DNA of 41,777 nt from Flavobacteriales bacterium (GTDB lineage Bacteria > Bacteroidota > Bacteroidia > Flavobacteriales_E > Vicingaceae), in the NCBI GenBank assembly GCA_029262875.1, contig JAJCYO010000124.1:1-41777 (forward strand), written 5' to 3'. Made by a program: the position numbers and the translations under genes. Below, piece after piece: positions 3,388 through 37,306 of this stretch. Numbering within the stretch: position 1 is the first letter of the stretch; each line of letters starts with the position of its first letter. The notes under the pieces were generated by a model. The model saw only the letters and a list, made by a program, of their open reading frames with translations. It searched no databases and had not been told where the DNA came from.

Positions 3388-4851
3388 ATGGAAGTGTTAG
3401 AAAACAAAAGAACCGCTTACGAAGAAAAATTAAATGAGTACGTAAGTGACGAAAGAGCTGCTGTAGATCTAATAAGCTCGATAGGTCATCTGATGTATGA
3501 GAAATCAATTGAATTAATTTTATTTAGAAACCCTTTGGTTAACAAAAGTACTTCTGAGGTTTTAAACTTGCATAAAAAAGCGAAATCAATAGCTTTTAAT
3601 CCTGTTGGCATTCATGATACTTCAGCTTTAGCCAGAGAGCTAATTAATTTAAATTTAGCTCCTTCAAAATTAGATATTGGAAAATTAGCAAGTGAATGGA
3701 GTACAGAAAAAAACAACTTTAGTAGTCCTGCTGAATTCTTATCGAATAAGTTGGCTGGATTTGAGAACACTGATGATCATAACATCACGCCTAAAGATGT
3801 GGTTTTATATGGTTTTGGTAGAATTGGAAGGTTGGCTGCAAGAGAACTAATTAAACAAGCTGGAAAAGGGCAACAACTGCGATTAAGAGCAATTGTTACA
3901 AGAACAGTTAATAAGGATGCTATAACAAAAAGAGCTGCCTTGCTTAGAAATGATTCTGTCCACAATGAATTTCAAGGTACTGTTGAAGAGGATTACGAAA
4001 ATAGTACACTAATCATTAATGGTCAAATCGTTAAAATGATTGAGGCAAAAAACCCAGAAGATATTGATTATACAGAATATGGGATTAATGATGCTTTGGT
4101 TATAGATAATACTGGTGTATTTAGCAATAGAGAAGCATTAAGCAGGCATTTAAAATCAACAGGAGTTAGCAAAGTATTGTTAACTGCTCCTGGTAAAGAG
4201 ATTCCAAATATTGTTTACGGAATAAATGAAGATCAACTTGATTTAGATAGTGAAGACATCTACTCTGCTGCATCATGTACTACCAATGCTATAGCACCAA
4301 TCTTATATACCATAGAAAATTCATTGGGAGTGATTAAAGGACATATAGAAACTGTTCATGCATACACTAATGACCAGAACCTCCTAGACAACATGCATAA
4401 GAAACCTCGAAGAGGAAGATCTGCTGCCATTAACATGGTAATCACATCTACTGGCGCAGGAAATGCAGTTACTAAGGTTATTCCAAGTCTAAAAGATAAA
4501 TTAACTGCAAATGCTGTTAGGGTTCCTACTCCAAATGGTTCTTTAGCCATTTTAAATTTGAATGTTGCTAAAGAAACTTCAGTTGACAACATTAATGAGA
4601 TTGTTAGAAAGGCTGCATTGTCTGGAGATTTAGTGAATCAAATTAAATATGAAATTGATCCTGAGTTGGTATCAAATGATATCATTGGAAATATATGTTG
4701 TTCTGTTTTTGACAGTAACGCTACAATTGTTTCTAATGATAAGAAAAACATTGTACTTTATGTATGGTATGACAACGAATTTGGGTATACCAAGCAGGTT
4801 ATAAGATTAGCTAAATACATTGCAAAGGTTAGAAGATTAATCTATTATTAA
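3388..4851 (+). CDS. gap: Glyceraldehyde-3-phosphate dehydrogenase, long form
   Basis: NAD(P)-dependent GAPDH (487 residues), converting glyceraldehyde 3-phosphate to 1,3-bisphosphoglycerate. The canonical enzyme occupies about residues 130-487: Rossmann motif VVLYGFGRIGRLA near 137, catalytic Cys297 in AASCTTNAIAP, the HAYTNDQ segment, and WYDNEFGYTKQ near the C-terminus. The first roughly 130 residues are an extension found in the long GAPDH class common in marine Bacteroidota; its role is not evident from sequence. It is about 150 residues longer than classical GapA. It starts 9 nt after rpoD and ends at a terminator (4873-4908), so it is likely read from the rpoD promoter. Confidence 0.95.
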   Translation: MEVLENKRTAYEEKLNEYVSDERAAVDLISSIGHLMYEKSIELILFRNPLVNKSTSEVLNLHKKAKSIAFNPVGIHDTSALARELINLNLAPSKLDIGKLASEWSTEKNNFSSPAEFLSNKLAGFENTDDHNITPKDVVLYGFGRIGRLAARELIKQAGKGQQLRLRAIVTRTVNKDAITKRAALLRNDSVHNEFQGTVEEDYENSTLIINGQIVKMIEAKNPEDIDYTEYGINDALVIDNTGVFSNREALSRHLKSTGVSKVLLTAPGKEIPNIVYGINEDQLDLDSEDIYSAASCTTNAIAPILYTIENSLGVIKGHIETVHAYTNDQNLLDNMHKKPRRGRSAAINMVITSTGAGNAVTKVIPSLKDKLTANAVRVPTPNGSLAILNLNVAKETSVDNINEIVRKAALSGDLVNQIKYEIDPELVSNDIIGNICCSVFDSNATIVSNDKKNIVLYVWYDNEFGYTKQVIRLAKYIAKVRRLIYY

Positions 4852-9746: not shown

Positions 9747-9783
9747 AAAAAAAAGAGGCTCAATAACTTGAGCCTCTTTTTTT
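9747..9783. terminator. Bidirectional terminator between DUF1573 and the solute-binding gene
   Basis: Perfect nine-base arms GAGGCTCAA (9755-9763) and TTGAGCCTC (9768-9776), with a TAAC loop, an A8 run on the left and a T8 run on the right, so it can end transcripts arriving from either side. It also ends the four-gene minus-strand operon. Confidence 0.9.
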
Positions 9784-10918
9784 ATTCTAATTTCCGGTAA
9801 TAATAAAGTTGATGGTCTATTAAGTTGGGATGAAACACCTCTATTAAATCTTTTAATACAATATGAGGATTTGCTACGCCCGATTCCCAATAATCATTCC
9901 CAGCAGTTGTATTTAATCGTTTGTCATTATTATACAACTGTTTTAGTTTTACCGATTTAAACCCTTTAAATTTCTCATCAAAACCTACAATTGAAGCAAT
10001 GTCTCTATAGCTATTTTGATTTAACCAAAAATCAGCATCGTACGCTTCGTCAATAATAATTTCCTTTGACTTTACTAAACTTGATTTTTCATCGTTATCC
10101 ATCCATAAATACCGTGCTCCAGCATCTTTAAACAATTGTACTTGAAATGATTTTGCTCCTGGAACATACCATGCTCCATCCCATGGCATTCCAGCAAAGA
10201 CAGTCGGTTTTTCATCAAGGTCCTGAGTTAACTCTAATAACCCTAAATACTCCTTTTCAATTTCATTAAAAATAATTGAAGCTTGCTCATCTTCTCCATA
10301 AAAAGCTGCTACAAACTTAATCCATTCAGCTTTTCCTAAGGGGTGAGTTTCCATGTATTCCGCATTTAAAACAACACTCAATCCCAAAGAATTTAATTTA
10401 TTAATATAACTGTTCGATGAAGCATCAATCCCAAAACCCATTATAAAATCCGGAGCTTGCTCCAATAACATTTCATAATTAATGCTTTGTCCTTGGCCTA
10501 TTTCTTTAATTAAATTGGTGGTTATGCGATGGTTGACTTTGGGACTACTCACATAATCACAACCTGATAAAGCTATAATAGAGTTTTCTTTTCCTATTTT
10601 TTCAATAAAAGCAACATGGGTCAAACTCATACAGGCAATGCTTTTTATAGGTGTTTTTATAAAAATAGCATCATCTATCCCTTTAGGTTTGTCATCGTTG
10701 TACAAAACATACTTAAAAGACGTATTGTCGCCAACCCAAGCATTCTTTAATGTAAGAAGTTTGTAATTCTGAAATTGTGTTATGGTAAAACCCTTCGCAT
10801 ACTTAATTTCATTCTTTTTAGATGTTTGAATAGTGTTTTCGGCTGAATTAGTTTCTTTTGTATCAGACTGGCATGCAAAAAGAAGAGGTACAAAAATGCA
10901 ATAAAATAGCTTTCTCAT
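9782..10918 (-). CDS. Iron-siderophore/cobalamin-type solute-binding lipoprotein
   Basis: A 378-residue periplasmic binding protein of the TroA/BtuF-like class (peripla_BP_2). The lipobox LLFAC places the lipid-modified Cys at residue 16. The fold is recognisable from IKSIACMSLTHVAFIEKIG (about 90-108), EIGQGQSINYEMLLEQAPDF (about 138-157), the helix-rich linker KAEWIKFVAAFYGEDEQASI, and the C-lobe with FAGMPWDGAWYVPGAKSF. It should bind a ferric-siderophore, heme or cobalamin for import, but no permease or ATPase is adjacent; instead it is the last gene of an operon with a repeat protein, a LecA-like protein and DUF4846. Its start overlaps the DUF4846 stop by 4 nt, implying translational coupling. 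Confidence 0.88.
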   Translation of the reverse strand: MRKLFYCIFVPLLFACQSDTKETNSAENTIQTSKKNEIKYAKGFTITQFQNYKLLTLKNAWVGDNTSFKYVLYNDDKPKGIDDAIFIKTPIKSIACMSLTHVAFIEKIGKENSIIALSGCDYVSSPKVNHRITTNLIKEIGQGQSINYEMLLEQAPDFIMGFGIDASSNSYINKLNSLGLSVVLNAEYMETHPLGKAEWIKFVAAFYGEDEQASIIFNEIEKEYLGLLELTQDLDEKPTVFAGMPWDGAWYVPGAKSFQVQLFKDAGARYLWMDNDEKSSLVKSKEIIIDEAYDADFWLNQNSYRDIASIVGFDEKFKGFKSVKLKQLYNNDKRLNTTAGNDYWESGVANPHIVLKDLIEVFHPNLIDHQLYYYRKLE

Positions 10919-11844
10919 TCAACATAACGTTTTAGTTGATCGGGGTAAAAAGTCCATTCAGGAGTTTCAATTACCTGTTTCAGCTCACTAACGCTGTACC
11001 AAGGTGAGTTATTATCATTAGGGTTTTTAAGGATGTGGATGCTTTGGGCCGGCATATAGCTTTGAGCTATTAGAAAAGCCTTATCGTTCGTTTTTTCATT
11101 TACAACAACATCCAAAACTGTAACAGCATGACCAGGAAACCCTCCTTTTATTAGCACATCACCGGCTTGGATGTCTGAAAGCGGTATACTTTTCATTTCT
11201 TTTTCCAAAGAAGCTGTTCCTGCATACATGAAAATATTGGTCATGTATTTTTTAAAGCTCTTGTAGGATGCATTGTTTGAAGAGTTAACCCAAACTACTT
11301 TATTTCCTTTTAAGCTTGGGTAATAGCCTCTACTCCACTTGGAGAAGGGAATGTTTACACCATTGGTATATTTAAAATGAATTTCATTGTATTGATTAGT
11401 AGCGTATAAGTACTCAGCTCTTAAGCGCATCACAGCATCAGCACATTGTTGTAAATCTTTATTACCAACATCTATGTCTAACACCTTAAACTGAGCATTT
11501 TGATTGTATTTTTTTTCTCCATTGTATAAATAGACCGTGTTATCCGTGCTAATGGGTAAATGTTGTAACCAGCTTGCAAATGAGTTTTTATTGGCCGCTA
11601 CCCTCTTATACCCTTCTGGTAATTCAATGGTGTTAATCAATGATTTTTTATAATCGTATGAAGTTTGCCAAGAATAATTATAACTCACTGTATCATCATG
11701 AGATGAAACAACAAGTTCCTGAACAGTTAAACTATCTTCTTGTATTGTTTTATGAGAAACTCCTACGTCTTGATTGTTTGTTTGACAAGATGCTATAATG
11801 CTTGTAAACAGAAATAATGGGATATACTTAATTCTTTTTATCAA
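10915..11844 (-). CDS. DUF4846 lipoprotein
   Basis: A 309-residue lipoprotein; the lipobox IASC puts the acylated Cys at residue 20. Most of the mature protein (about 65-305) matches the DUF4846 family as I remember it: FASWLQHLPI, VLDIDVGNKDLQQCADAVMRLRAEYL, and GDVLIKGGFPGHAVTVLDV, where the GxPGH segment resembles a His-containing active or binding site. No enzymatic activity is assigned. The start is TTG at 11844, directly after the TAG of the preceding gene; no ATG or GTG lies before the lipobox, and AAGGTAAGGTAG just upstream may serve as ribosome site. It overlaps the next gene by 4 nt. Confidence 0.88.
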   Translation of the reverse strand: MIKRIKYIPLFLFTSIIASCQTNNQDVGVSHKTIQEDSLTVQELVVSSHDDTVSYNYSWQTSYDYKKSLINTIELPEGYKRVAANKNSFASWLQHLPISTDNTVYLYNGEKKYNQNAQFKVLDIDVGNKDLQQCADAVMRLRAEYLYATNQYNEIHFKYTNGVNIPFSKWSRGYYPSLKGNKVVWVNSSNNASYKSFKKYMTNIFMYAGTASLEKEMKSIPLSDIQAGDVLIKGGFPGHAVTVLDVVVNEKTNDKAFLIAQSYMPAQSIHILKNPNDNNSPWYSVSELKQVIETPEWTFYPDQLKRYVE

Positions 11845-12837
11845 CTACCTTACCTTTAGCTTTACGATATAATATCCAGTATTAGAAGCATTGTATACCG
11901 TCTCGTAAATCGATAGGTACAGCATACCACTTGCATCTGCCTTACCTTTATATTTCGCTCCTGCACTTTTAGAGGTTCCGTTATCTCCTATTTTAAAAAC
12001 ACAATTGCCATAAACTGGATATGTAGAATTGGAAGCATTTGGTGTAAACTTATCACTTGTAGCTCCTTTATAAGACCCATCTGGTTTGTATTTATTCCCC
12101 GAAAGGCTTGCAAAGGCTACTTCTCCGCTGGCTATAATATCCATACTCTGCCCTTTCTTAACCATTATTCCTGTCTTTAACCAACCACCATTATTGTTAC
12201 CACTAATATGAGTAGTAGCAAAAAGTTTAAATGTTTTCATACCTCCTTCTGAAGCATCATAAAACATCACGTCAATCTTCTCTATTTTTATTCGTGGCAC
12301 CGTTAAAGTTCCATATTCTGTCTTCAATTCAACATTTTTAAAATCATATCTCCCCCCCATGTTATAAGCATAATCTATAGAAACGACATCTTTGTTCTTG
12401 TAATTATCAGAAACGTTATGTGTAGCTTTTAACTCATTAACAGCTGTAGACAATGAATAATCGCTAAACTCTCCAGGGTTGTACTCTGATGAAAACATCA
12501 CCTCCTCTATAACAGGAATAGCTGAAGCATTTAACTCTGTAATTGCTTTATATGCTTTTTCCCTCATTTCAGTATTTGAGTTAGAAAGCTGATTAACCAA
12601 ATTCTTTACATTACTTTTTTGTGCATAATCAGCATGCAACCCCAACTCAATCGAAGTCACATTTTTGATAGGAATTTCAAGTTTACCATAGTCAGTTACT
12701 AAGGATATTTTCGTAATTTTTGTTGTTCCAGTAACTACACTTCCGTCTTTAAGGCTCAGCGTAAATTCTGTTTTATTTTGTGAGTTTGCCGAAAACACTA
12801 TGGCAATTAAGAATAAGAAAAGGGTTATTTTTTTCAT
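11845..12837 (-). CDS. Secreted protein with C-terminal LecA (PA-IL)-like beta-sandwich domain
   Basis: A 330-residue protein with a signal peptide (about 1-20, LFLFLIAIVFSANSQ). Residues 25-75 are a small beta domain (SLKDGSVVTGTTKI..DYGKLEIP), whose pattern recurs at about 175-200 (KTEYGTLTVPRIKIEKIDVM), suggesting internal duplication around a helical stretch that looks HEAT-like (about 85-120). The C-terminal 120 residues resemble the LecA/PA-IL-like galactose-binding sandwich: KTGIMVKKGQSMDIIASGEV, then GNCVFKIGDNG and GMLYLSIYE near the end; sugar or calcium binding is not proven. The ATG at 12837 gives the signal peptide; the open frame extends to 12954 only as overlap with the preceding gene. 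It starts 10 nt after the repeat-protein stop. Confidence 0.82.
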   Translation of the reverse strand: MKKITLFLFLIAIVFSANSQNKTEFTLSLKDGSVVTGTTKITKISLVTDYGKLEIPIKNVTSIELGLHADYAQKSNVKNLVNQLSNSNTEMREKAYKAITELNASAIPVIEEVMFSSEYNPGEFSDYSLSTAVNELKATHNVSDNYKNKDVVSIDYAYNMGGRYDFKNVELKTEYGTLTVPRIKIEKIDVMFYDASEGGMKTFKLFATTHISGNNNGGWLKTGIMVKKGQSMDIIASGEVAFASLSGNKYKPDGSYKGATSDKFTPNASNSTYPVYGNCVFKIGDNGTSKSAGAKYKGKADASGMLYLSIYETVYNASNTGYYIVKLKVR

Positions 12838-12847
12838 TGTTATTGTT

Positions 12848-15800
12848 TTAATCGATTGACTCTTTGTCCCAAAGAGATTGTGTAATGTTAATTCCATTTT
12901 TATAGAAGAAAGTCCCTCCCCATGTATAAAATACTCTTTCATAAACATCTGCATGACTACCTGTTACTTTCGTTCTTTTAATGGTAATTGAATTCCCAGC
13001 TTCTGTTGTTTCCTCAGTAATTCCCTGCGGGTATTTTTTTGCCAACTCACTATCTTCACTTAACCGTTTTTCACCAATATAGAAATCATTTAACCCAGCA
13101 TCAGCCAACAACATTCTTTCTTTCTCCATTGTCTGTAAATCAGACATGAAATCATTGTTATTCTTTTTTTGCTCATTCAATTTCACCTGAAACTCTTCAT
13201 ATCTTTTTTCTTGTGATTGGCTTGTTACACCTAACGTCCCTATTGCATCAACTATTTTCTTGTTGGATTTTATTCTTTTATTATCGGCTTGTTTTTGATG
13301 CGCTAACTCATATTTCAAAATTGATTCTTTATACTCATCTACATATTGAATATCATCATAATACCTATCTTCCTGACGTTTTGTGTTTTTAACATAATCG
13401 CTTTCTATTTTGGTCAATACTTTTTTGTATGCCTCTCTATCCTTTTCTGCTTTTTCTATCCGTCCATTTTCTAAATCGTCTATTTTAGCTTTAAACTTCA
13501 CCAACTCATCAACATTCAATTTATAGTAATTTGTTTTTTCTACTTGTTGTTTTGTCATCTCATCAGCAAGGTCCTTAATCTCTTCTCCATTTTTGCTTGT
13601 TCTATCTATTGATGCTGAAATTAGAATTTCCTCCCCTTTAGCCAATTCATCTTTATATTCACGAACATCTACCTCCATATCTTCTCTTCTCTTTTTATTT
13701 CTTGCTTTATTTTTTTCTGTTTCAGAAACTAATGATTCTAAATCTTTTCTATTCTCGTCTCTCATTTTATCACCTCGATCTATCATCGTCAATTTTGCCT
13801 CTGTAACATTGTCAACATATACATTATGAACTTCCATCTTATCTTTATTCAACTCATCTTGTTCTTTTTTAAACGCGATTTGATCTTTAGTGTAATTGGC
13901 TAAATCGGCATCTGACTCTTCTCTTCTTTTATCCGCATCTTTAATTCTATTCTTTTCAGCTTTTTCTAATAAGTTAGTTGTAGCTAACAACGTCTCACTA
14001 TTTTCTAAATGGTATTTATTACCACGGTCTGTTTGTTCGATAAAATCTTCTGTGTATTTATCAATTTGCTCATCAGCTTCATCTGTTCTTGATATCCCAG
14101 CAGAAATTCTTATCTCCTCTTGTTCATTATAAGCTTCCTTATCACCTTGGAGTTCTTTGTCTTTTTCTATGATAGATTTATTACGCATTGCTGCCATTCT
14201 AGCTTCAATCTCTTTTTCTTTATCGTCACTAATTTTAGCTCTATTTCCACCATAGGTATTGTTTGAAACAACCACCTCCTTAGGTTTGTTTTGCTCAGCT
14301 AAAAGCGCCAATATTTCTTCCAGTTTACCTTTAGGGTATTTTTCATTGGCATAAAGGTTTAAGGCCTCTTTATACCCCACCTGAGCCTTGGTATATTCTT
14401 TTCTCTTCCTTGCCCTGTCAGCATCATAAATAAGCTTGTCGTATTCAGCTCTTTTTTCCTTTTCAGCCAAAGCAGCATCTTTATTGTTTTTATCTTCTTC
14501 AGCGATTCCAGCTAATATCTTATTTATCTCATCAATCTTCTCTTTAGGATAAGTTTTATCAGGCATTATACCTAAGGCCTGTTCATAGTTAGAAATTGCC
14601 TTTGAATATCTTTTTCCTGACAATTCAGCATCAGCTTTCTTTACAAAAGCATTGTATTGTTCTTGCTTTTGCTTTAAAGCATTGTTCGTCAATGTTATCT
14701 CAGCCTCTTTCGCTGCAATTTCAGCCAATAATCTATCAATTTCTTTTATCTGATCTTTAGGGTAAAACTCTTCACTTTTTAATAAGAGAGCCGACTTATA
14801 CTTACCCTTAGCATCTGCATATTTTTTTGTGCCAAATGATTGATCTGCCTGGGTAATCAAATCATTGTACTTCTTCTCTAATTCTTCCTTAGCCATAGCT
14901 GCATTTGCCTTATCCGCTTCAATTTTAGCTAAAATATCTTTTATCTCTTGAAGTTTGTCTTGTGGATATTTTTCTCCAGGAATTACTCCAAGTGCCTGAT
15001 TGTATTTTCCTTCCGCTTCCTTGTAATTCTTGCCAATTAACTCCCCATCTGCTTCAGCTACCAAAGCATCAAAATATTCTCTCTTTTTCTTTTCAGATTC
15101 GGCTGCAAGTTGATCTTCTGCTAACTTTTTAGCTATGGCAGCTAATGCAGCGTCAATTTCTTTTAATTTATCTTTTGGGTACTGTTCTGCTGGCTTGATA
15201 CCCAATGCTTCGCTGTATTTTATTTTAGCTTGGTCATAATTTTCAAAATTCATTGCATTATCAGCCAATGTAATGGCCTCCTGATATTTCGCATCCCTTT
15301 CCCCTTCAGCTAACTTTGCAGCTTCTTCTTCAGCTTTTTTTCTTGCTATTTCAGCTAATGCATCTTCTATTTCTTTAAGCTTATCTTTTGGATATTGTTC
15401 CTCTTTCTTTAATTCAAGTGCCTCTGTGTATTTTGCTTTAGCTGGCTCATAACTTTTATCTCCAAAACTTTTATCCGCTGCAACAATCAACGCATCGTAT
15501 TTTGCTTGCAGCTCAGCAGCGGCTTTTTCTTTCGCTAATTTTTCAGCTTCTTGCTCTGCTAACTTAGCCAGCAAACCATCTATTTCAGAAATTTTATCTT
15601 TTGGATATTGTTCGTCTTTTTTAATTGTTAATGCTTCAGTAAATTTTCCCTTTGCATCTTCATAACTCTTCCCTCCTAATAATTGATCTCCATCCGCTAT
15701 TAACTGCTGATACTTTTTTTCTTGAGCAGCTTTATCAGCTTCTTCTTTCGCTAACTCGGCCAATAACCCATCTATTTCAGAAATTTTATCCTTTGGGTAT

Positions 15801-17692
15801 TGTTCTTCTTTCTTAATGGCTAAAGCCGCGGCATACTTCCCTTTAGCTTCATCATAACTCTTGCTTCCTAATAATTTATCGGCATCCGTTATAAGCTGTT
15901 GGTATTCTTTCTCTCGAGCAGCTTTTTCAGCTTCTACTTTCGCTAATTGAGCTAATAATCCATCTATTTCTGCAATTTTATCTTGTGGGTACTTTTCATC
16001 TTTTTTAATTAATAGTGCTTCAGCATATTTCCCCTTGGCTTTATCATAGTCCTTATCTCCCAACAACTTATCTCCATCAGTTATTAATTGTTGATAAGCT
16101 TCATCTATTTCTTTTTGTTTGGCCAATTCAGCCAAAAAGCCTTCTATCTCTTTTAGCTTGTCTTTTGGGTATTGTTCGTTCTCCTTTAATGTTGCTGCAG
16201 TTTCATAAGCGGTTTTAGCTTCTTCATAATCTTTTGACCCTAAAGCTACATCTCCTTTTTTTATTGCATTGGCATAATCTGCATCCAATTTAGCCGCAGC
16301 GCTAAGTAAAGCCTCTATTTCAGTTAATTTATCCTTCGGGTATTGTTCCTTGGCTTTTAGTTTAGAGGCCTCCTCAAACTTACCTTTGGCTGTGTTATAG
16401 TCTTTACTCCCAAAGGCAGCATCACCATCAGCAATAAACTTATCGTAATTTTCTTGGATTTGTTTCATCTCGGCAATAAGTCTTGTTGCCTCATCAATTT
16501 TTCCTTTTGGATAAGTTTCATCCGGTTTAAAACCTAATGCTTTGTTATAAGTTTCAATTGATTTCTTATAATCTTCCGAATTGAATTCACTATCAGCCTG
16601 AGCAATCGCATCGTTATAATCTTTTTCCTTTTTAGCCAAATCAGCTAATAATTCGTCTATTTCTTTGAGTTTATTCTTTGGGTATTCTTCGTAAGATTTA
16701 AGCCCAGAAGCTTTCTCATAGTTGATCTTTGCCTTATCGTATTCTTTATTAGTCAAATATTGATCTGCCAGTGCTATTGCCTCATTGTAATCTTTTGAAA
16801 CCTTCTTCTCATTGGCAACAATGGTGTCAATCTCCTTGATTTTATCTTTAGGGTATTGTTCTTTTTCTTTTAGCGCGGTTGCATTTTTATATTCAGTTTT
16901 TGCCTTAGCCCATTCCTTTGCTGCAAATGCCTTATCTCCTCTTTCTATTGCCGAATTGTATTTTTTGTTTGCTGCTTCTAACCCCGCTAATTTATCCGAT
17001 ATATCAGCCAATTGAAAATCAGGGTATGTTTCCTTAGGGAAAATACTCAGTGCTTTTTCATAAAAAGGCTTTGCTTCCGCCCATTTTCCCGAATTGTATG
17101 CTTTATCTGCTGAGGCAATTGCAGCATCATAATCTTTTTGATTGGCTTTTCTGTTTTCTTCCTCAGCCTTTAGCCTTTCTGCAAGCTCCTTTTTTAATCG
17201 ATCTAATTCTTTTTTAATCGATTTGGTATAATCAGGATCATAATCCATATAACCCGTTGCTGGATTAAAAGCAACTTTGGCAATGGGTTGATTTAAAATT
17301 GAAACATCCAATCCATCCATTTCTTCAAATAGATTCATTTCCATCGGAAAATCAAATCCATATTTTGCGTCATCGGGTGGAACATTTCTGGTGGATAGTT
17401 CCATACGTTTGGTAACATGCCCTGGTTTAGAGAATTCAATAACATAAACGGCATCAGGAAGCAATTGGGCTTCAAATTTACCATTGGCAGGAGAGGTTAA
17501 TGTTTTCCATACGGTTCCATTTCTTTTAATGGTAATGGTGGCTCCTTCCATTCGTTTCTTGGTCTCTTCCTTCTTCACACTTCCCATAACATCTAACGTC
17601 CATTGAGCAACAGACGTTTGTGATTGTAACATCAATAAACCTACAATGACAAAACCAACTAATCGATATGTGAATCTTTTTCCCACTAACAC
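12848..17692 (-). CDS. Giant secreted repeat protein (about 15 TPR-like repeats plus coiled coil)
   Basis: A 1614-residue exported protein and first gene of a four-gene operon. Order: signal peptide (about 1-29), carboxypeptidase-regulatory-like beta domain (about 35-120, EGATITIKRNGTVWKT), short coiled coil (155-183), about 15 tandem repeats of 56-75 residues (about 185-1135) with a consensus like Y..AI..AD..L..K.Y..AK..Y..AL.LK..EQYPKDK..EID.LLA, a charged coiled-coil region (about 1150-1560) with an ISAxIxRT motif twice, and a C-terminal end with YPQGITEE, VYERVFYTWGG and KNG.NIT. Each repeat looks like one TPR pair plus a third helix carrying the EqYPkdK signature. The start is GTG at 17692 (another GTG at 17686); a stop lies just upstream. 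It is probably a structural or scaffold protein of the envelope; function unknown. Confidence 0.88.
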   Translation of the reverse strand: MLVGKRFTYRLVGFVIVGLLMLQSQTSVAQWTLDVMGSVKKEETKKRMEGATITIKRNGTVWKTLTSPANGKFEAQLLPDAVYVIEFSKPGHVTKRMELSTRNVPPDDAKYGFDFPMEMNLFEEMDGLDVSILNQPIAKVAFNPATGYMDYDPDYTKSIKKELDRLKKELAERLKAEEENRKANQKDYDAAIASADKAYNSGKWAEAKPFYEKALSIFPKETYPDFQLADISDKLAGLEAANKKYNSAIERGDKAFAAKEWAKAKTEYKNATALKEKEQYPKDKIKEIDTIVANEKKVSKDYNEAIALADQYLTNKEYDKAKINYEKASGLKSYEEYPKNKLKEIDELLADLAKKEKDYNDAIAQADSEFNSEDYKKSIETYNKALGFKPDETYPKGKIDEATRLIAEMKQIQENYDKFIADGDAAFGSKDYNTAKGKFEEASKLKAKEQYPKDKLTEIEALLSAAAKLDADYANAIKKGDVALGSKDYEEAKTAYETAATLKENEQYPKDKLKEIEGFLAELAKQKEIDEAYQQLITDGDKLLGDKDYDKAKGKYAEALLIKKDEKYPQDKIAEIDGLLAQLAKVEAEKAAREKEYQQLITDADKLLGSKSYDEAKGKYAAALAIKKEEQYPKDKISEIDGLLAELAKEEADKAAQEKKYQQLIADGDQLLGGKSYEDAKGKFTEALTIKKDEQYPKDKISEIDGLLAKLAEQEAEKLAKEKAAAELQAKYDALIVAADKSFGDKSYEPAKAKYTEALELKKEEQYPKDKLKEIEDALAEIARKKAEEEAAKLAEGERDAKYQEAITLADNAMNFENYDQAKIKYSEALGIKPAEQYPKDKLKEIDAALAAIAKKLAEDQLAAESEKKKREYFDALVAEADGELIGKNYKEAEGKYNQALGVIPGEKYPQDKLQEIKDILAKIEADKANAAMAKEELEKKYNDLITQADQSFGTKKYADAKGKYKSALLLKSEEFYPKDQIKEIDRLLAEIAAKEAEITLTNNALKQKQEQYNAFVKKADAELSGKRYSKAISNYEQALGIMPDKTYPKEKIDEINKILAGIAEEDKNNKDAALAEKEKRAEYDKLIYDADRARKRKEYTKAQVGYKEALNLYANEKYPKGKLEEILALLAEQNKPKEVVVSNNTYGGNRAKISDDKEKEIEARMAAMRNKSIIEKDKELQGDKEAYNEQEEIRISAGISRTDEADEQIDKYTEDFIEQTDRGNKYHLENSETLLATTNLLEKAEKNRIKDADKRREESDADLANYTKDQIAFKKEQDELNKDKMEVHNVYVDNVTEAKLTMIDRGDKMRDENRKDLESLVSETEKNKARNKKRREDMEVDVREYKDELAKGEEILISASIDRTSKNGEEIKDLADEMTKQQVEKTNYYKLNVDELVKFKAKIDDLENGRIEKAEKDREAYKKVLTKIESDYVKNTKRQEDRYYDDIQYVDEYKESILKYELAHQKQADNKRIKSNKKIVDAIGTLGVTSQSQEKRYEEFQVKLNEQKKNNNDFMSDLQTMEKERMLLADAGLNDFYIGEKRLSEDSELAKKYPQGITEETTEAGNSITIKRTKVTGSHADVYERVFYTWGGTFFYKNGINITQSLWDKESID
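14285..17140 (-). repeat. Tandem coding repeats in the giant protein
   Basis: About 15 consecutive units of roughly 170-225 bp encode the EqYPKDK-type repeats. Protein-level conservation is high for the KxYxxAKxxY and EqYPkdKxxEI segments while the DNA is diverged. Inter-repeat linkers lengthen from unit 7 on by Ala/Glu/Lys-rich coiled-coil inserts (for example KVEAEKAARE and KKAEEEAAKLAEGERDA). Units 7-9 are the most alike (each has YQQLI and ends in GLLA.LA), suggesting the most recent duplication. Confidence 0.85.
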
Positions 17693-17852
17693 CTTGAGTT
17701 AACTAACAAATATCGTAAATCCATAATTAAATCTATTATAAATCAAACAAAATAATCCCCCTACAACCTTAAACGAAATCGTTCGCAAATTGTTATCTAA
17801 TAAATAAAGTTGTTATTAAGATGTTTTATGGATAAAAATCCATAAAAATAGA

Positions 17853-22655: not shown

Positions 22656-23423
22656 ATGAAATTAATCTCCTGGAATTTAAACGGAATAAGAGCTGTACAT
22701 AAAAAAGGCTTGTACGGAAAAATAGAAGCAATGAATCCCGACATCATTTGTTTTCAAGAAACAAAAGCACAGGACCACCAAGTTGCTGAAGTATTGGAAG
22801 GGCTGGAAGGATATTACTTTTACTCCAATTCTGCGGTAAAAAAAGGTTATTCTGGAACAGCCATTGTTTCCAAGACTAAACCTTTAAATGTTAGTGTTGA
22901 TATAGGGATTGAGGAACATGACCAAGAGGGAAGAGTTATTACTGCTGTGTTTGACAATTTTTACATTACGAGAATCTATACCCCAAACTCTAAAAACGAT
23001 TTATCCCGTTTACCAGACAGACAAAATTTTGATGCCGCTTTTTTGATCTATTTAAAAGAGTTGGAAAAGAAAAAACCAGTAATTGTTTGTGGTGATTTCA
23101 ATGTAGCACATAGAGAAATTGATTTGGCTCGACCAAAACCCAATTACAACAAAAGTGCAGGATTTATGCAAGAAGAAATTGACGGAATGGACAACTTTAC
23201 CAACGCGGGGTTAATTGATACATTTAGACACCTGCATCCCGACAAAACAGAAGCTTACAGTTGGTGGAGCTTTAGAGGTGGTGCAAGAGACAGAAATGTG
23301 GGCTGGAGGATTGACTATTTCTTGACAAGCGAAAGTATTATTGAAAAAGTAAAGTCAGCAGACATTCTCTCTGACATTTACGGGTCTGACCACTGCCCCG
23401 TATCAATTGACGTTAAATTTTAA
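22656..23423 (+). CDS. xth: Exodeoxyribonuclease III / AP endonuclease
   Basis: A base-excision-repair AP endonuclease and 3'-5' exonuclease of the EEP fold (255 residues, full length). Metal and catalytic residues are visible: Asn8 in SWNLNGIRA, Glu35 in CFQETK, Asp147 and Asn149 in CGDFNVAH, and the final Asp-His in YGSDHCPVSIDVKF. The YTPNSK and RIDYFL segments are also typical of ExoA. It abuts folP with no gap, so the two form an operon, and its last 11 bp overlap the convergent TPR-SpoIIE gene. Confidence 0.96.
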   Translation: MKLISWNLNGIRAVHKKGLYGKIEAMNPDIICFQETKAQDHQVAEVLEGLEGYYFYSNSAVKKGYSGTAIVSKTKPLNVSVDIGIEEHDQEGRVITAVFDNFYITRIYTPNSKNDLSRLPDRQNFDAAFLIYLKELEKKKPVIVCGDFNVAHREIDLARPKPNYNKSAGFMQEEIDGMDNFTNAGLIDTFRHLHPDKTEAYSWWSFRGGARDRNVGWRIDYFLTSESIIEKVKSADILSDIYGSDHCPVSIDVKF

Positions 23424-25473
23424 CTCCCATCACACATATATCATCGAGTTGATCGATGTCTCCTTTCCAATTTTCCATGGTCTCAGTTAAATGGATCAAT
23501 TGTTTATCCATTGTTTGATTCTGAATGGATAAAAACATTTTTTTAAATCGTTTGTACATGAATTTTTTTTCTTTCTCACCACCAAATTGATCTGCATATC
23601 CATCTGAAAATAGGTAAACAGCATCATCTTTACTCAATTGAAATTTATGGGATCGATACTTTTCTTTATTCTGCCCTCCTCCAATAGCCATCTTATTTGG
23701 TTTGATTTCATAAAATATAGAACGTTCATCTTCCATAATAAATTCTAATCCATCTATTTTATTTTGAGGTTTTCTTAAAATATACAAAGAATTATTTGCT
23801 CCAGAATACTCCAAGGTATTATTTGATTTGTCAACAGAACAGATTGAAATATCCATACCATCTCTAATCGATATAATATCATCATCTGGATTGCTATTTT
23901 TTCCTAATGCCTGATTTACTAACTTATTGAGTTCATCTAATATCTCTCCTGTGGATTCGACCCCTAAATCTTCCACTATTTTACTCAAGGAATTAGCACC
24001 GATTATACTCATAAACGCCCCTGGAACTCCATGCCCAGTACAGTCAACCACTGAAAAGAACAATTTATTTTCCGTTTCTTTTATCCAATAAAAATCTCCA
24101 CTAACAATGTCTTTAGGTCTATAATAGATAAATGATTCGTAATGCTGTTTTAGTATTGATTCTTCAGGCAAAATAGCATCTTGTATACGCTGAGCGTAAT
24201 TGATACTATCAGTTATGTCTTTGTTTTTCTCTTCTATTATTTCATTCTTACTTGATATCTCTTCATTTTGAACATTCAATAGCTTGTTGGTCTTCTTCTT
24301 TTGATTTAAACTATAAGCAACATAAACCACAACTAATAATGACAAACCTAATCCTATCCCTAACATTTTTTGCTGATTGGATTTCTTGTCCAATTCAGCC
24401 TTATCTAACTCTTTTTCAGCAATTAGCAAACTGTTTTCAGCCTCTTTTTTTTCTGTATCATATTTTGTTTGCATCTCCGCTATTGCTTCAGCATTCTGCT
24501 GACCATACAAAGTGTCTTTCCAATCTGCATAAAGCTGCGTATATTCAAGTGCTTTACTCGTGCTCCCCATTTGAGTGTATGTTTCAGAAAGCCCCTTATA
24601 AGCTATCATAATAGACTCTGTAGCATCCAATTCTTTCGCTATTTCTAATGATTTTAAATTAAACTCTACCGCTTTTTCATATTCTTTCATCGCAATATAG
24701 ACATCAGCAATATTCAAATATGCTGTATGCAACGCAGTTTTATCATTCAATTCTATTTTTATGGTTATAGATAATTGATGAAATTTTAGAGACTTATTAT
24801 ATCGATTTATATGTTTAAGTCCAACTGCTCGACTACCATAAAGTGAAGCAACCATACTTTTATTATTCAATGGTTTAACTATTTTCATAGCCTTTTCATA
24901 ATAAATCATTCCTTTATTATAATCTGCATTAAAGAAATAATAATCAGCCATACTACTATAACTTATTGCTGCTGATTCCATATCTCCTCTTTGCTCCTCT
25001 AATTTAACTGCTTGTTCTAAATATTGAAATCCCTTTTCCGTTTCTCCCTTGAAATCATATAATGAACCAAGGTTGTATAAGGTATTAGCCATCATATTAG
25101 TATCTGTAATTTCTTCTGCCACTTTGAGTGACATTAAATAATATTTTAAAGCTTTTTCATATTTATCTAAAAAGAAATAAGCATTCCCTACATTATTCGC
25201 ACTCTGTGAAATATTTTGTTTTGTTTGTCTACTTTCATTTTTAATAGTTTTCGAAACTTTTAAAGCTTCTTGAGCATATTTTAATGCCTTGTTATAGTCT
25301 GTAGAGTATTGCTCACTAAATAGTTCGTTTAACAATTTAACTTTCTTTGATTTACTCTGTTCTGTCGCAAGTAAATCATTCAAGCTATCAAGAACCGTTT
25401 TTTCAGCAAAAATAGTTCCTCCACATAAAAAAAAGAAAGAACATAATAATAAAATATAGCGACTTAAGTTCAT
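23413..25473 (-). CDS. TPR - membrane segment - SpoIIE/PP2C phosphatase, copy 1
   Basis: A 686-residue putative signalling phosphatase. Order: signal peptide (about 1-23), about seven TPRs in the periplasm (30-330), coiled coil (340-365), one membrane helix (about 368-387, LGIGLGLSLLVVVYVAYSL), cytoplasmic coiled coil (390-440), SpoIIE-type PP2C domain (455-686). The last has YRPKDIVSGDFYWI, VDCTGHGVPGAFMS and YLFSDGYADQFGG with the metal-binding Asp residues intact. Such proteins are expected to sense envelope signals through the TPRs and dephosphorylate an anti-sigma antagonist, but no such partner is nearby. It is paralogous to the gene at 26009-28123. A possible promoter (TTG-N18-TATCTTTA, 25511-25483) fits with one mismatch. 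Confidence 0.9.
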   Translation of the reverse strand: MNLSRYILLLCSFFFLCGGTIFAEKTVLDSLNDLLATEQSKSKKVKLLNELFSEQYSTDYNKALKYAQEALKVSKTIKNESRQTKQNISQSANNVGNAYFFLDKYEKALKYYLMSLKVAEEITDTNMMANTLYNLGSLYDFKGETEKGFQYLEQAVKLEEQRGDMESAAISYSSMADYYFFNADYNKGMIYYEKAMKIVKPLNNKSMVASLYGSRAVGLKHINRYNKSLKFHQLSITIKIELNDKTALHTAYLNIADVYIAMKEYEKAVEFNLKSLEIAKELDATESIMIAYKGLSETYTQMGSTSKALEYTQLYADWKDTLYGQQNAEAIAEMQTKYDTEKKEAENSLLIAEKELDKAELDKKSNQQKMLGIGLGLSLLVVVYVAYSLNQKKKTNKLLNVQNEEISSKNEIIEEKNKDITDSINYAQRIQDAILPEESILKQHYESFIYYRPKDIVSGDFYWIKETENKLFFSVVDCTGHGVPGAFMSIIGANSLSKIVEDLGVESTGEILDELNKLVNQALGKNSNPDDDIISIRDGMDISICSVDKSNNTLEYSGANNSLYILRKPQNKIDGLEFIMEDERSIFYEIKPNKMAIGGGQNKEKYRSHKFQLSKDDAVYLFSDGYADQFGGEKEKKFMYKRFKKMFLSIQNQTMDKQLIHLTETMENWKGDIDQLDDICVMGVKI
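23426..23553. repeat. Direct repeat A, copy 1 (3' end of TPR-SpoIIE gene 1)
   Basis: 128 bp that match 26022-26149 in the same orientation with one mismatch (G versus A in GATCGAT[G/A]TC). Similarity continues at a lower level through the phosphatase and coiled-coil regions up to about 24500. Confidence 0.95.
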
Positions 25474-26008: not shown

Positions 26009-28123
26009 CTATAGACGAACCCCCATCACACATATATCATCGAGTTGATCGATATCTCCTTTCCAATTTTCCATGGTCTCAGTTAAATGGATCAATTGTT
26101 TATCCATTGTTTGATTCTGAATGGATAAAAACATTTTTTTAAATCGTTTATACATAAACTTTTTTCCCTTTTCTCCTCCAAACTGATCGGCATAACCATC
26201 TGAAAATAGGTAAACCGTATCACTCTCATTCAATTGAAATCTATGCGACTGGTACTTTTCTTTATTCCGTCCTCCACCAATAGCCATCTTATTAGGCTTT
26301 ACCTCATAGAAGATGGCATTTTCATCTTCTAATATAAATTCTAAGCCATCAATCCTGTTTTGAGGCTTTCTTAAAATATAAAGCGAATTGTTTGCTCCAG
26401 AATACTCTAAAGTAGCGTCTGATTTATTGATAGAACATATCGAAATATCCATTCCATCTCGTATAGACAGGACTTCATCATCAGAAATTTGTTCCCTCCC
26501 CAATGCCTTATTTACCAACTTGTTTAGCTCATCCAATATTTCACCAGTTGTTTCAATCTTCAAATCTTCTACGATCTTATTTAAGGAGTTGGACCCTATT
26601 ATACTCATAAACGCCCCTGGAACTCCATGGCCAGTACAGTCAACCACTGAAAAGAACAATTTATTCTCTGTTTCTTTTATCCAATAAAAATCTCCACTAA
26701 CAATGTCTTTAGGTCTATAATAGATAAACGATTCGTGATGTTGTTTTAATATTGATTCTTCAGGCAAAATAGCATCTTGTATCCGTTGAGCATAATTTAT
26801 ACTATCTGTAATGTCCTTATTCTTCTCCTCAATGATGTCATTTTTTGTAGATATTTCTTCATTTTGTGCATTTAACAATTTGTTGGTCTTTTTCTTTTGA
26901 TTTAAACTGTAGGCAACATAAACCACAATAAGAAAAGCCAATGCCAAACCTAACAACAACATTTTCTGCTGGTTAGATTTCTTCTCCAATTCTACCTTAT
27001 CTAATTCCTTCTCAGCCAATAGCAAACTGTTTTCGGCCTCTTTTTTCTCTGTATCATACTTTGTTTGCATCTCTGCTATTTGTTCTGACGAAGTCTCATT
27101 GTAAATACTATCCTTTAAATTAAAAGCAATTTTAAAGTGTTCATAAGCCAATTGATAATTCCTATTACTGTAAAAAGCCATCGCTAAACTCTGATTAGAA
27201 TTTAATATGGACTTCTTATCTTCAGATAAATTAGCATTTTTAACCGCTTTCTTACCATATATCAATGCATTTGTAAAGTCATTTTTCACAGAATAGATTT
27301 CCGAAATATTACTATATATAGATGCTAACATTGCTACATCACCTTCATCTTCTTTAAGTTTTGCAGCTTTTTTAAAGTACATCAATGCCTTGTCATGCTC
27401 TCCCTTAGTCTGATAAACAATTCCTATATTAGAATAATGTGTCCCAGCTTTTTGTTCTACTTCATTTTTTATTAAAAGGTCTACCGCTTCAAAATAACTC
27501 TCTAACCCCTTCTCTACATTACCCAAAGCAACATAACACAAGCCCATATCCCCTAAAGTTGATGCCTCCTGCATTTCCCTTCCTGCCTTTTTTTCAATTT
27601 CATATACTTGAGTAAAATATTTCAGTGCCAATTTATGGTTTCGCATATAGTAATAGGTCCCAGCTAATCCTGACAAACTAACGGATATACCTGAAGTATC
27701 ATTTATAGATTCCTTAGCCTTTAATGCCTGTAACATAAAAGATATCGATTTTTCATAATTACTAAACCCTTGATAGAGGTAAGCTAAATTGTCATAGTAG
27801 TTAATCTTAGCCAAATCGTTATCAAGGTTTTCAACAAAGGTTCCTTGCAGTTTGGCATATTTCATTGCCTTAGGTGGGTCCGAGTTAAAATAAATCCAGC
27901 ACAAGGCATTTGAAATTTTAGATTTTTCGAGGTCATCATTGGATTTCTCCAAGTGTTCTATCAGCTTCTCAATCGGTTGATTTCTAAGTTTAGAAACGCC
28001 ATCGGTATAATCCTCAACATGCAACAAAATGCTATCTATCTTAGAGTCATTTGAATAGACAAAATTTGCAGGCATTAAAGCCAACATTAGTAATATGATG
28101 AAGAGAGATTTTTTCGTATTCAC
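26009..28123 (-). CDS. TPR - membrane segment - SpoIIE/PP2C phosphatase, copy 2
   Basis: About 704 residues, same layout as the gene at 23413: signal peptide (LFIILLMLALMPANFVYS), TPRs, coiled coil beginning KYDTEKKEAENSLL, one membrane helix (LLLGLALAFLIVVYVAYSL), cytoplasmic coiled coil and SpoIIE domain with VDCTGHGVPGAFMS and YLFSDGYADQFGG. The TPR half has diverged from copy 1 whereas the second half is nearly identical, so the two should sense different inputs but act through the same catalytic output. The start is uncertain: GTG at 28123 gives a standard signal peptide (MNTKKSLF); an in-frame ATG at 28171 adds 16 residues. A small gene (28240) is divergent from it, as with copy 1. Confidence 0.88.
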   Translation of the reverse strand: MNTKKSLFIILLMLALMPANFVYSNDSKIDSILLHVEDYTDGVSKLRNQPIEKLIEHLEKSNDDLEKSKISNALCWIYFNSDPPKAMKYAKLQGTFVENLDNDLAKINYYDNLAYLYQGFSNYEKSISFMLQALKAKESINDTSGISVSLSGLAGTYYYMRNHKLALKYFTQVYEIEKKAGREMQEASTLGDMGLCYVALGNVEKGLESYFEAVDLLIKNEVEQKAGTHYSNIGIVYQTKGEHDKALMYFKKAAKLKEDEGDVAMLASIYSNISEIYSVKNDFTNALIYGKKAVKNANLSEDKKSILNSNQSLAMAFYSNRNYQLAYEHFKIAFNLKDSIYNETSSEQIAEMQTKYDTEKKEAENSLLLAEKELDKVELEKKSNQQKMLLLGLALAFLIVVYVAYSLNQKKKTNKLLNAQNEEISTKNDIIEEKNKDITDSINYAQRIQDAILPEESILKQHHESFIYYRPKDIVSGDFYWIKETENKLFFSVVDCTGHGVPGAFMSIIGSNSLNKIVEDLKIETTGEILDELNKLVNKALGREQISDDEVLSIRDGMDISICSINKSDATLEYSGANNSLYILRKPQNRIDGLEFILEDENAIFYEVKPNKMAIGGGRNKEKYQSHRFQLNESDTVYLFSDGYADQFGGEKGKKFMYKRFKKMFLSIQNQTMDKQLIHLTETMENWKGDIDQLDDICVMGVRL
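26022..26149. repeat. Direct repeat A, copy 2 (3' end of TPR-SpoIIE gene 2)
   Basis: Partner of 23426-23553, 127 of 128 bases identical. Both copies encode the C-terminus of the phosphatase domain (ENWKGDIDQLDDICVMGV). Confidence 0.95.
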
Positions 28124-28239
28124 GTTCCTAAGATAGAAAAATCTGAATGTATTTCTTTGGAAAACCAGCATTTTTTTCTAAATTAGAAAAAATTTATTTA
28201 TTAATCTGTCTAGTGATAGACGCAAAAACGACATTAATT

Positions 28240-31769: not shown

Positions 31770-31816
31770 AATACCATAGCTCTTCCTGTTTACTTAATTT
31801 TTACTACCTTGCATTG

Positions 31817-32236
31817 ATGAAAAAAATAGTCCTCATTGCAATCATTTTACCGCTACTATTTTCTTGTTCAAAGAAATGGGATGGCTGTACCGATTATGTA
31901 GCCCTTAATTTTAAGGAAATTGCTGAAAAAGACGATGGTAGTTGCATTTATACTACACTTACTTTTTATGCTGATTCGGCCAACTACCCTGTCTCTCCCG
32001 TTGATTACATTGACGTTTCAGTACAAGGAAGTGGTTTGGGTGTTTTTTCTAAGGTATACTCTGTTGGAGGTCCTGCCGATTGTAATGCGGAAGGAACCTT
32101 GAATTTTTCATTTGAAGATGCCGGTAAAATCACATGGATATCTACAGTGCACCTCGTTAATGGAACGAGTAGTAGCACCACTGGCGTAGCAGTTCCAGAT
32201 AGCTCTCAAACCTGTATACTGATTAAGGTATTGTAA
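31817..32236 (+). CDS. Small lipoprotein with GC..A.N..DDGSC motif, paralogue 1
   Basis: A 139-residue lipoprotein (lipobox LLFSC, Cys18). The mature N-terminus carries the motif GCTDYVALNFKEIAEKDDGS with its following Cys, a Bacteroidota cell-surface motif with an acidic DDGSC loop that may bind calcium. The rest is beta-rich with two further Cys (DCNAEG and TCILI), giving four mature Cys besides the lipid-modified one, probably two disulfides. Paralogues are at 32357-32773 and 36890-37306. The start is ATG at 31817, with a TTG in frame just before. A short unassigned gap with a weak hairpin (32276-32297) separates it from the second paralogue. Confidence 0.85.
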   Translation: MKKIVLIAIILPLLFSCSKKWDGCTDYVALNFKEIAEKDDGSCIYTTLTFYADSANYPVSPVDYIDVSVQGSGLGVFSKVYSVGGPADCNAEGTLNFSFEDAGKITWISTVHLVNGTSSSTTGVAVPDSSQTCILIKVL

Positions 32237-32356: not shown

Positions 32357-32773
32357 ATGAAAAAGTTAATTCTAATTGCATTAGCCCTACCCCTTCTCTT
32401 TTCATGTTCAAAAAATGAAGGATGTAATGATAATTCAGCTTTTAATTTTTCTGTGGATGCAGATTTTGATGATGGAAGTTGTGTTTATACGAGACTAACT
32501 TTTTACGCAGATTCTTCAAACTATCCTGCAACACCTATTGAACGTATTGAAATTTTAATCAATGAAAGTGGTATTGGCTCGTTCTCTGGCGCAACTTATA
32601 GTGTTTTAGATTGTAGTGCTGAATCGGATATAACGCTTAGTTTTCCTATGAAAAGCTCCACTCAGGTTGAATGGAAAGCGCTTGTTTTTCTTACCAATGG
32701 GACTACAAACACTAAAACAGGAACTGTTGCTTCAGATTTAGCTCAATCTTGTATTTTAATTAATGCTTTATAG
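32357..32773 (+). CDS. Small lipoprotein with GC..A.N..DDGSC motif, paralogue 2
   Basis: A 138-residue lipoprotein (lipobox LLFSC, Cys17), with GCNDNSAFNFSVDADFDDGS before the motif Cys, then LTFYADSSNYPATPIERIEI, closely similar to paralogue 1 (TLTFYADSANYP). The two later Cys (DCSAES and SCILIN) are conserved. The pair is evidently a tandem duplication of a cell-surface or periplasmic lipoprotein; function unknown. Its stop is 12 nt before the next lipoprotein gene, so 32357 and 32786 are probably co-transcribed. Confidence 0.86.
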   Translation: MKKLILIALALPLLFSCSKNEGCNDNSAFNFSVDADFDDGSCVYTRLTFYADSSNYPATPIERIEILINESGIGSFSGATYSVLDCSAESDITLSFPMKSSTQVEWKALVFLTNGTTNTKTGTVASDLAQSCILINAL

Positions 32774-36788: not shown

Positions 36789-36889
36789 ACTACTGGTGTT
36801 TTTACTTAATTTAAATACCGTGTTTTAACGGAAATCAACCCTTTCAATTTCATATACCTTCAACCCCTTAACTAATTAAACTAATAATG

Positions 36890-37306
36890 ATGAAAAAAAT
36901 AATATTAATAGTAGCACTATTCCCTCTTTTCTTTTCATGCACTAAAGAAAAAGGATGCACTGAAAGAAAAGCAACTAATTACAATATAGAAGCAGATGAA
37001 GATGACGGCAGCTGTAACTTCTCAGATGTTACCTTTTATGCAAAATGGGGATCCTATTCTGGTGTACCCATTACCACAATTGATGTAACCGTAGATGGAA
37101 GTACTTTAGGATCTATAGCAACGGTGTATTCTAATGGTCCTGGCAATTGTGATGCTACCGGAACTGTTAAACACATTTTTCAAAGTGGAAATAGTGTTGG
37201 ATGGAATTCTACTGTTTTCTTAGCCAATGGTGCCATCATATATGGTTCCGGCACAATAGATCCAAGTAGTACACAAGATTGTATTAAAATAAATGTAACC
37301 CAATAA
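36890..37306 (+). CDS. Small lipoprotein with GC..A.N..DDGSC motif, paralogue 3
   Basis: A 138-residue lipoprotein (lipobox FFSC, Cys17) with GCTERKATNYNIEADEDDGS before the motif Cys, then VTFYAKWGSYSGVPITTIDV, and the two later Cys (NCDATG and DCIKIN) shared by the copies at 31817 and 32357. It is about equally distant from both, so the triplication is not very recent. The gene has two adjacent ATG codons (36887 and 36890). The M48-like protease gene begins 10 nt after its stop, so the two are probably co-transcribed. Confidence 0.86.
   Translation: MKKIILIVALFPLFFSCTKEKGCTERKATNYNIEADEDDGSCNFSDVTFYAKWGSYSGVPITTIDVTVDGSTLGSIATVYSNGPGNCDATGTVKHIFQSGNSVGWNSTVFLANGAIIYGSGTIDPSSTQDCIKINVTQ

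Follow-up and report, generated by a model that had tools for sequence, protein, structure and literature searches.

What kind of protein is built from about 15 tandem units that share an EqYPkdK signature, and what might it do for the cell? We examined a gene of this kind on a 41,777-nt contig from a Flavobacteriales bacterium (GTDB family Vicingaceae); the whole contig is referred to here as the window. The original prediction, made from the letters of the DNA and their translations, had described an open reading frame of 1614 residues at 12848–17692, and exactly this frame was recovered on the minus strand (Table 1). A second GTG, six nucleotides further in, is the likelier start, and the relatives that begin with ATG align there. 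The first two codons are thus probably unused, which would leave a protein of 1612 residues.

Table 1. Coordinates in the window of the repeat gene, the parts of its product and the neighbouring features
Feature	Position	Strand	Basis or remark
Repeat gene	12848..17692	-	1614 codons from GTG 17692; likelier start GTG 17686 (1612 residues)
Signal peptide, residues 1-30	17603..17692	-	By inspection
N-terminal beta-sandwich domain, residues 31-152, carboxypeptidase-regulatory/transthyretin-like	17237..17602	-	PF13620, 28.7 bits (below cut-off); model; 5aq0 match
15-unit array, residues 186-1138; TPR-type helix pairs, EqYPkdK signature, long helix shared between units	14279..17137	-	Sequence and model
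Long helical, coiled-coil-like segment, residues 1157-1532	13097..14224	-	Model; pLDDT largely 55-85, under 50 in places
Conserved C-terminal domain, residues 1542-1614 (YPQGITEE ... WGGxFYxKNGxxIT), beta meander and helix	12851..13069	-	Conservation and model
c14, exported by inspection	11845..12837	-	No Pfam match; ATG 10 nt past the stop of the repeat gene
DUF4846 lipoprotein-like gene	10915..11844	-	PF16138, 328.6 bits
c1, ABC transporter substrate-binding lipoprotein-like gene	9782..10918	-	Overlaps the DUF4846 gene by 4 nt
Conserved promoter-like box TACGATATTTGT	17706..17717	-	19 nt before the likely start

Domain organization of the repeat protein

Secretion of the protein, which the original prediction had taken as given, is plausible. 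By inspection, the protein begins with a type I-like signal peptide (...TSVAQ/W), and it has neither a lipobox nor a cysteine. The domain that follows is predicted to have a transthyretin-like fold. CarboxypepD_reg (PF13620) matched residues 35–96 at 28.7 bits, below its cut-off of 32.3, and the one match obtained when the PDB was searched by sequence, a weak one, also fell on this domain. Its predicted model superposed on 5aq0 (Z 10.2, 2.1 Å over 81 residues) and on the N-terminal extension of SusC (9hfj; Z 9.4, 3.0 Å over 80 residues). Whereas the SusC extension belongs to a TonB-dependent transporter, the domain here caps a repeat array. Paralogues of the N-terminal domain are encoded elsewhere in the same genome. 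One is a protein of 495 residues with a repeat-like stretch and an Ala/Lys/Glu-rich tail (locus L002, 1453..2940), and others are short proteins of about the size of the domain itself (L004; L003, 1489..2004, 171 residues).

At the opposite end, the WGG/KNG segment noticed earlier corresponds to a conserved domain of ~70 residues that is retained in the relatives. No Pfam match over the cut-off was obtained for 31 of these C-terminal domains (scanned at E up to 1), and PDB matches were weak and partial; in the comparison by fold, the match lists were dominated by the helical part of the protein. No Pfam model exists for the C-terminal domain of the family. The T9SS sorting domain, Por_Secre_tail, was absent from Pfam scans of the whole protein (E up to 10) and of the 31 C-terminal domains (E up to 1). 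PorE, a part of the T9SS in the cell envelope, combines TPR, carboxypeptidase-regulatory and OmpA domains. A PorE-like component was considered here, but an OmpA domain was not listed in the Pfam scan (E up to 10).

TPR-type modules and the helices that join them

The array consists of 15 units anchored on the dipeptide YP, in line with the estimate of about 15 EqYPkdK units in the original prediction. Their spacings are, in order, 57, 57, 57, 57, 57, 60, 64, 64, 71, 71, 71, 68, 71 and 71 residues, and the growth toward the C-terminus that had been described is evident. YP occurs 16 times in the protein (15 of them in the array), whereas 1000 shuffled sequences had 1.8 on average and never more than 7. 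Many positions of the unit are invariant or nearly so across 25 aligned sequences.

The helix pair in each unit had been called TPR-like, and this was borne out: TPR_2 (PF07719) scored 37.8 bits against a cut-off of 27, and with a profile of the N-terminal half, TPR chains were retrieved from the PDB at E values around 1e-4 to 1e-3. In the Pfam search, TPR_2 stood above its cut-off with five matched stretches among the 15 units at E up to 10. The view that the repeat belongs to no nameable family therefore held in part. The helix pair is TPR, whereas no sequence match in Pfam, NCBIfam or the PDB covers the 57–71 period together with its signature; in NCBIfam, nothing exceeded the cut-off for the repeat protein.

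Two AlphaFold2 models were built. The first covered residues 31–720 and used 24 of 29 listed N-terminal relatives (mean pLDDT 88.1, pTM 0.36), and the second covered residues 1005–1614 and used 33 of 37 listed C-terminal relatives (pLDDT 75.6, pTM 0.26); the relatives left out of the alignments were near-duplicates and distant rows. As the pTM values are 0.36 and 0.26, the overall shape of the protein is not established by these models. AlphaFold2 readily predicts long helices in sequences rich in Lys, Glu and Ala. After the N-terminal beta-sandwich, long and short helices alternate in the models, with one of each per unit. The short helix is predicted to have a constant length of 14 residues, and the long helix measures 35–36, 39, 43 and 49 residues at spacings of 57, 60, 64 and 71, respectively, with one case each for spacings 60 and 71 and with the 49-residue helix taken from the second model. 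In the models, length variation thus sits in a single helix. The original prediction had given each unit a third helix, but the models show two per unit: the EqYPkdK.xEI segment opens a helix that runs on into the first helix of the next unit, so that the supposed third helix would be the first helix of the following unit. On the basis of the model, in which this helix is unbroken across the unit border, a three-helix unit was rejected. After the array, where a long coiled coil had been expected, long coiled-coil-like helices are likewise predicted.

Single stretches comprising helix A, helix B and the following half-helix A′ superposed on solved TPRs with 0.6–3.3 Å over 53–62 residues, including the TPR of PP5 (1a17; Z 9.7, 1.4 Å over 57 residues) and 3fp4 (Z 9.8, 0.6 Å over 57 residues). 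Z values below ~13 are common for helical repeats, and the TPR call leans on the local superposition and the Pfam score. The A/B helix pair is what the units share with the TPR families (PF07719 and TPR_8, PF13181). They differ from TPRs in having a period of 57–71 residues instead of 34, in the extra YPkdKxxEI segment and in the helix after B, which is common to the next unit. Among the chains compared, no TPR superhelix matched several units closely, and the multi-unit structure alignments listed for the first model had rmsd values of 22–109 Å. Spectrin-type rods also consist of consecutive helical modules joined through a continuous helix, a likeness that none of the search tools returned. 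The spectrin repeat is ~106 residues long, however, and the units here are of TPR type with a period far below that length; Pfam gave no spectrin match in the repeat protein at E up to 10.

The spacing of the units was analysed across the family. Among 686 spacings from 71 non-redundant members, peaks were found at 57 (181), 60 (49), 63 (25), 64 (83), 67 (138), 68 (17) and 71 (114), and spacings between the peaks were rarer, for example 56 (11), 66 (9), 69 (16) and 70 (11). To reduce relatedness, one member was taken from each of 14 clusters, and 129 of the 148 spacings in these representatives lay on a 57 + 3.5k grid, to which 11 of the 22 integers in the range 55–76 belong. Periods of 3.5–3.8 residues fitted the spacings about equally (R 0.62–0.67), a range within which the coiled-coil value (3.5) and the straight-helix value (3.6) are not distinguishable. 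Seven-residue steps were also considered and were weak (R 0.09 among the non-57 spacings), the shorter steps fitting better. A period of 3.5–3.8 residues means that the step is one helical turn, and the spacing is therefore quantized by one helical turn, independently of any structure prediction. The simplest meaning would be that insertions are tolerated only as whole turns of the shared helix, so that the modules stay in rotational register. Locally, and from the spacing, there is good support for an architecture in which shared helices connect TPR modules into an exported rod.

The array had also been proposed to be expanding, with units 7–9 the most alike, and this was supported in part. 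These units are 70–75% identical in amino acid sequence, and their best partners are found among themselves (74–75%) and not among the units of 12 relatives (at most 70%). Arrays of 12 units are present in two close relatives. In L044, one of the two, 71-spaced units follow directly on the 57-spaced ones, without the 60- and 64-spaced units. At identical residues, however, the same codon is used in only 26 of 43, 26 of 42 and 27 of 40 positions in comparisons among units 7–9. Since 33–40% of these codons differ, any expansion was not very recent. The sequences thus indicate turnover in the middle of the array, though not of a very recent date.

Distribution, gene neighbourhood and a promoter-like box

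A profile of the C-terminal domain gave one match each in 43 of the 46 genomes of the window's order, and matched all 32 of those that are at least 90% complete. Across the phylum, 4 of 395 genomes were matched, including the window's own, a first-pass count with a short query that may miss some. In G034, a genome of the order, there is a second locus, which ends at a contig edge before the C-terminal domain and may be a strain or assembly duplicate. In another (G026, locus L057), the family gene is present as two open reading frames of 1257 and 420 residues. Relatives from named genomes include those of Vicingus serpentipes and Acidiluteibacter ferrifornacis, both Flavobacteriales, and of Cryomorpha ignava.

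In the window, the repeat gene is followed after 10 nt by c14, then by the DUF4846 gene and by c1, whose start overlaps the DUF4846 stop. The c14 gene adjoins the repeat gene in several relatives as well. For c1 of the window, the sole NCBIfam match was to the haem-binding protein IsdE (21.5 against a cut-off of 298.65), and no PDB relatives were found at E up to 0.1; a relative of c1 in locus L053 matched Peripla_BP_2 at 35.1 bits (cut-off 27.5). In many relatives, c1, a FecCD permease and an ABC ATPase lie downstream of the repeat gene. Upstream of it, many have genes for a T9SS-tailed protein, a BtuB-like receptor, a DUF5074 propeller and a Diphthami_syn_2 ATPase (Dph6-like), and sometimes for a BtuF-like protein. 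The best NCBIfam matches were TonB-B12 for the BtuB-like receptor (100.9 bits, cut-off 599.7), BtuC for the permease (209 bits, cut-off 334) and FecE, below the cut-off, for the ATPase. Solved relatives of the DUF5074 propeller include BtuG2 and BtuG3, and their structure codes are named as BtuG structures in PMC10404256.

Of these genes, the window keeps only that of the binding protein downstream of the repeat gene. Elsewhere in its own genome, an operon with a cobalamin riboswitch (DUF4465, T9SS protein, BtuB-like, DUF5074 and Dph6-like genes) lies on another contig, and the only FecCD permease lies with an ATPase on a third. We scanned the best 80 of 178 relatives in named genomes, a set that leans toward the window's order. 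Among these 80 loci, c1 was present within about 2.1 kb downstream in 30, including one (L103) in which the repeat ORF is a fragment, and BtuB-, DUF5074- or Dph6-like genes were present upstream in 13; several of the contigs end early, so that misses of context are partly technical.

Rfam searches of 11 upstream regions detected a cobalamin riboswitch in 10, two of which came from other families. Fourteen such regions had been fetched, and L085–L087 stood outside the Rfam search, the riboswitch of their genomes being on another contig. Of four further loci outside the order, two (L144 and L148, both with short family members) had the riboswitch upstream. It was not found in L083, L130 or L151, the sequences of the latter two beginning inside the operon, nor in the window or the ten repeat-gene loci themselves. 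On the same contig and within about 8 kb upstream of the repeat gene, it was present in 9 of the 46 genomes of the order. All 32 near-complete genomes of the order have both the repeat gene and the riboswitch, so that a phyletic profile is uninformative. In L148 (8388..12121), BtuB- and DUF5074-like genes under a cobalamin riboswitch are immediately followed by a tandem row of one gene with only the N-terminal domain and two short family members; these are among the smallest B12-linked members.

Just before the start of the repeat gene lies a conserved 12-base box, TNCGATATTTGY. At least 9 of its 12 bases were found in 43 of 72 family members, in a count made without a chance control, so that 9/12 matches may be chance; at least 10 bases were found in 39 members and all 12 in 18. 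The other 29 members have none and, as far as they could be mapped, lie outside the order. The 3.94-Mb genome contains two exact copies, against one for the reversed control pattern, and six degenerate matches, against two for the reversed pattern; three of the six lie 19–31 nt upstream of a gene start. Within the window, 3 matches with two mismatches or fewer were observed, below the 5.65 expected. Since the reversed control gave 2 matches against 6 and the window fell below expectation, the box is notable for its place and not for its number.

In the same genome, the box also stands 20–31 nt upstream of an RND/MMPL-like gene and of an ABC-F-like one (L171 and L204, at about 1501 in each; both named by eye). 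The box looks like a promoter element, and its occurrence suggests a rare promoter class common to a few genes. Its copies before the RND/MMPL-like and ABC-F-like genes weaken the idea of a gene-specific operator. Direct control of the repeat gene by the riboswitch is weakened in turn, as the conserved box stands after the Dph6-like gene and ahead of the repeat gene. Inside B12 operons too, the repeat gene seems to have a promoter of its own, so that the riboswitch need not control it.

Several other genes of the window were characterized by eye. Two neighbouring paralogues on the minus strand (23413–25473 and 26009–28171) combine a TPR-like N-terminal half with a SpoIIE/PP2C-like C-terminal half, and a third protein with a similar C-terminal half is encoded beside one of the N-terminal domain paralogues (L003, 2..1102). 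On the plus strand, genes at 31814–32236, 32357–32773 and 36887–37306, two in tandem and one about 4 kb away, encode small lipoprotein-like proteins that are related to one another and show a C...AxNF...DDGSC-like pattern. A GAPDH-like protein encoded at 3388–4851 (plus) has 487 residues, including a long N-terminal extension.

Possible roles in the cell envelope

Our leading interpretation, to which we assign a probability of about 0.4, is that the repeat protein is an exported rod or tether of the cell envelope, most likely periplasmic, with the uptake of corrinoids (vitamin B12) as its most likely client. Such a rod would be stiff and non-lipidated. It would start with the transthyretin-like domain and continue with 12–24 minimal TPR modules in the window's order, each comprising helices A and B and, packing back as A′, the first half of a long helix whose remainder would serve as helix A of the following module, in the manner of spectrin repeats. 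If this shared helix were lengthened by whole turns, the spacing would change and the rotational register of the modules would be kept. The rod would end in the long coiled-coil-like helices and the small conserved C-terminal domain. Its task would be that of a spacer or tether that holds inner- and outer-membrane parts, or a binding protein, in place. For its client, the best functional lead is the corrinoid link, which gene order suggests in several lineages; it is no more than a lead.

As described in four papers (PMC10404256, PMC8941943, PMC12751083, PMC13398666), BtuG, BtuH and BtuJ of Bacteroides are likewise exported accessory proteins from cobalamin-riboswitch loci of Bacteroidota, but they are beta-propeller, Ig/BtuH or jelly-roll B12 binders. 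The words "tetratricopeptide" and "TPR" are absent from the main text of these four papers, and "coiled" from that of the three in which it was looked for. In the literature covered, which left preprints and most subscription papers outside its scope, we found no mention of EQYPKDK, no description of the repeat family, nothing that joins Vicingaceae with tetratricopeptide and nothing that joins TPR, spectrin, "continuous helix" and rod. A more specific form of the rod interpretation would be a trans-periplasmic scaffold, in which a TPR-built, spectrin-like rod of adjustable length links outer-membrane BtuB–BtuG to inner-membrane BtuFCD across the whole Bacteroidota order and whole-turn spacing keeps its binding faces in register. 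We regard this form as unlikely.

It is quite possible, if doubtful, that the rod is instead a general structural element with nothing specific to B12, the gene linkage being inherited synteny. It could serve as a spacer among the outer membrane, peptidoglycan and inner membrane, or as a platform for wall remodelling together with the DUF4846 lipoprotein. In a survey (PMC10318531), DUF4846 was suggested as a possible NlpC/P60-like wall-modifying domain, and its gene follows the repeat gene in the window's genus and in L049 and L063, from two other families; in L049, this link exists without B12 genes. The promoter-like box of the repeat gene would also fit a general role, as would its retention in every near-complete genome of the order, even away from B12 genes. 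Among loci L126–L169, 38 of 44 lack same-strand B12 genes within 9 kb, and outside the order most of the family loci read are without a B12 link. However, a B12 linkage turns up again beyond the order, there beside different neighbours and for the most part in shorter members (L072, L063, L068, L130, L144, L148 and L151), and in L130 and L072 with frame-to-frame gaps of 38–40 nt after the Dph6-like gene. Judged from gene order, synteny inherited from one operon would explain this less well.

That the protein acts in the periplasm and not outside the cell is what we infer, and a cell-surface or secreted TPR-type binding protein or adhesin, with a repeat number that tunes reach or the avoidance of predators or phages, seems very unlikely. 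The signal peptide recognized by inspection would suit such a protein, as would the variable number of units (12–16 among close relatives, reaching 24 within the order) and the turnover of the middle units. However, Pfam (E up to 10) gave neither a T9SS sorting domain nor a known adhesin domain, and there is no lipobox. Furthermore, the end units mostly hold their position across congeners, most of them matching best the same-numbered unit of the 15-unit arrays (11, 12 and 10 of 15 in L092, L095 and L096, respectively), and the C-terminal domain is single-copy in the order. Finally, there is only a slight chance that this is an ordinary TPR or low-complexity charged protein (Lys 15%, Glu 12%, Ala 12%; TPR_2 above its cut-off) with a 57–71 period that reflects drift without structural meaning, a reading already disfavoured by the helical-turn quantization in several lineages, the near-invariant unit positions and the conserved terminal domains.

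If the interpretation as a rod of TPR modules is true, shared helices would offer a natural route from such modules to a long linear rod. The spacing of the modules would be tunable by single helical turns, which would be useful for understanding how repeats evolve and for designing proteins. If the B12 link is true, the repeat protein would be a structural component of corrinoid uptake that is absent from the descriptions of the Escherichia coli and Bacteroides systems that were read, and the crossing of the periplasm by the cargo would become testable.
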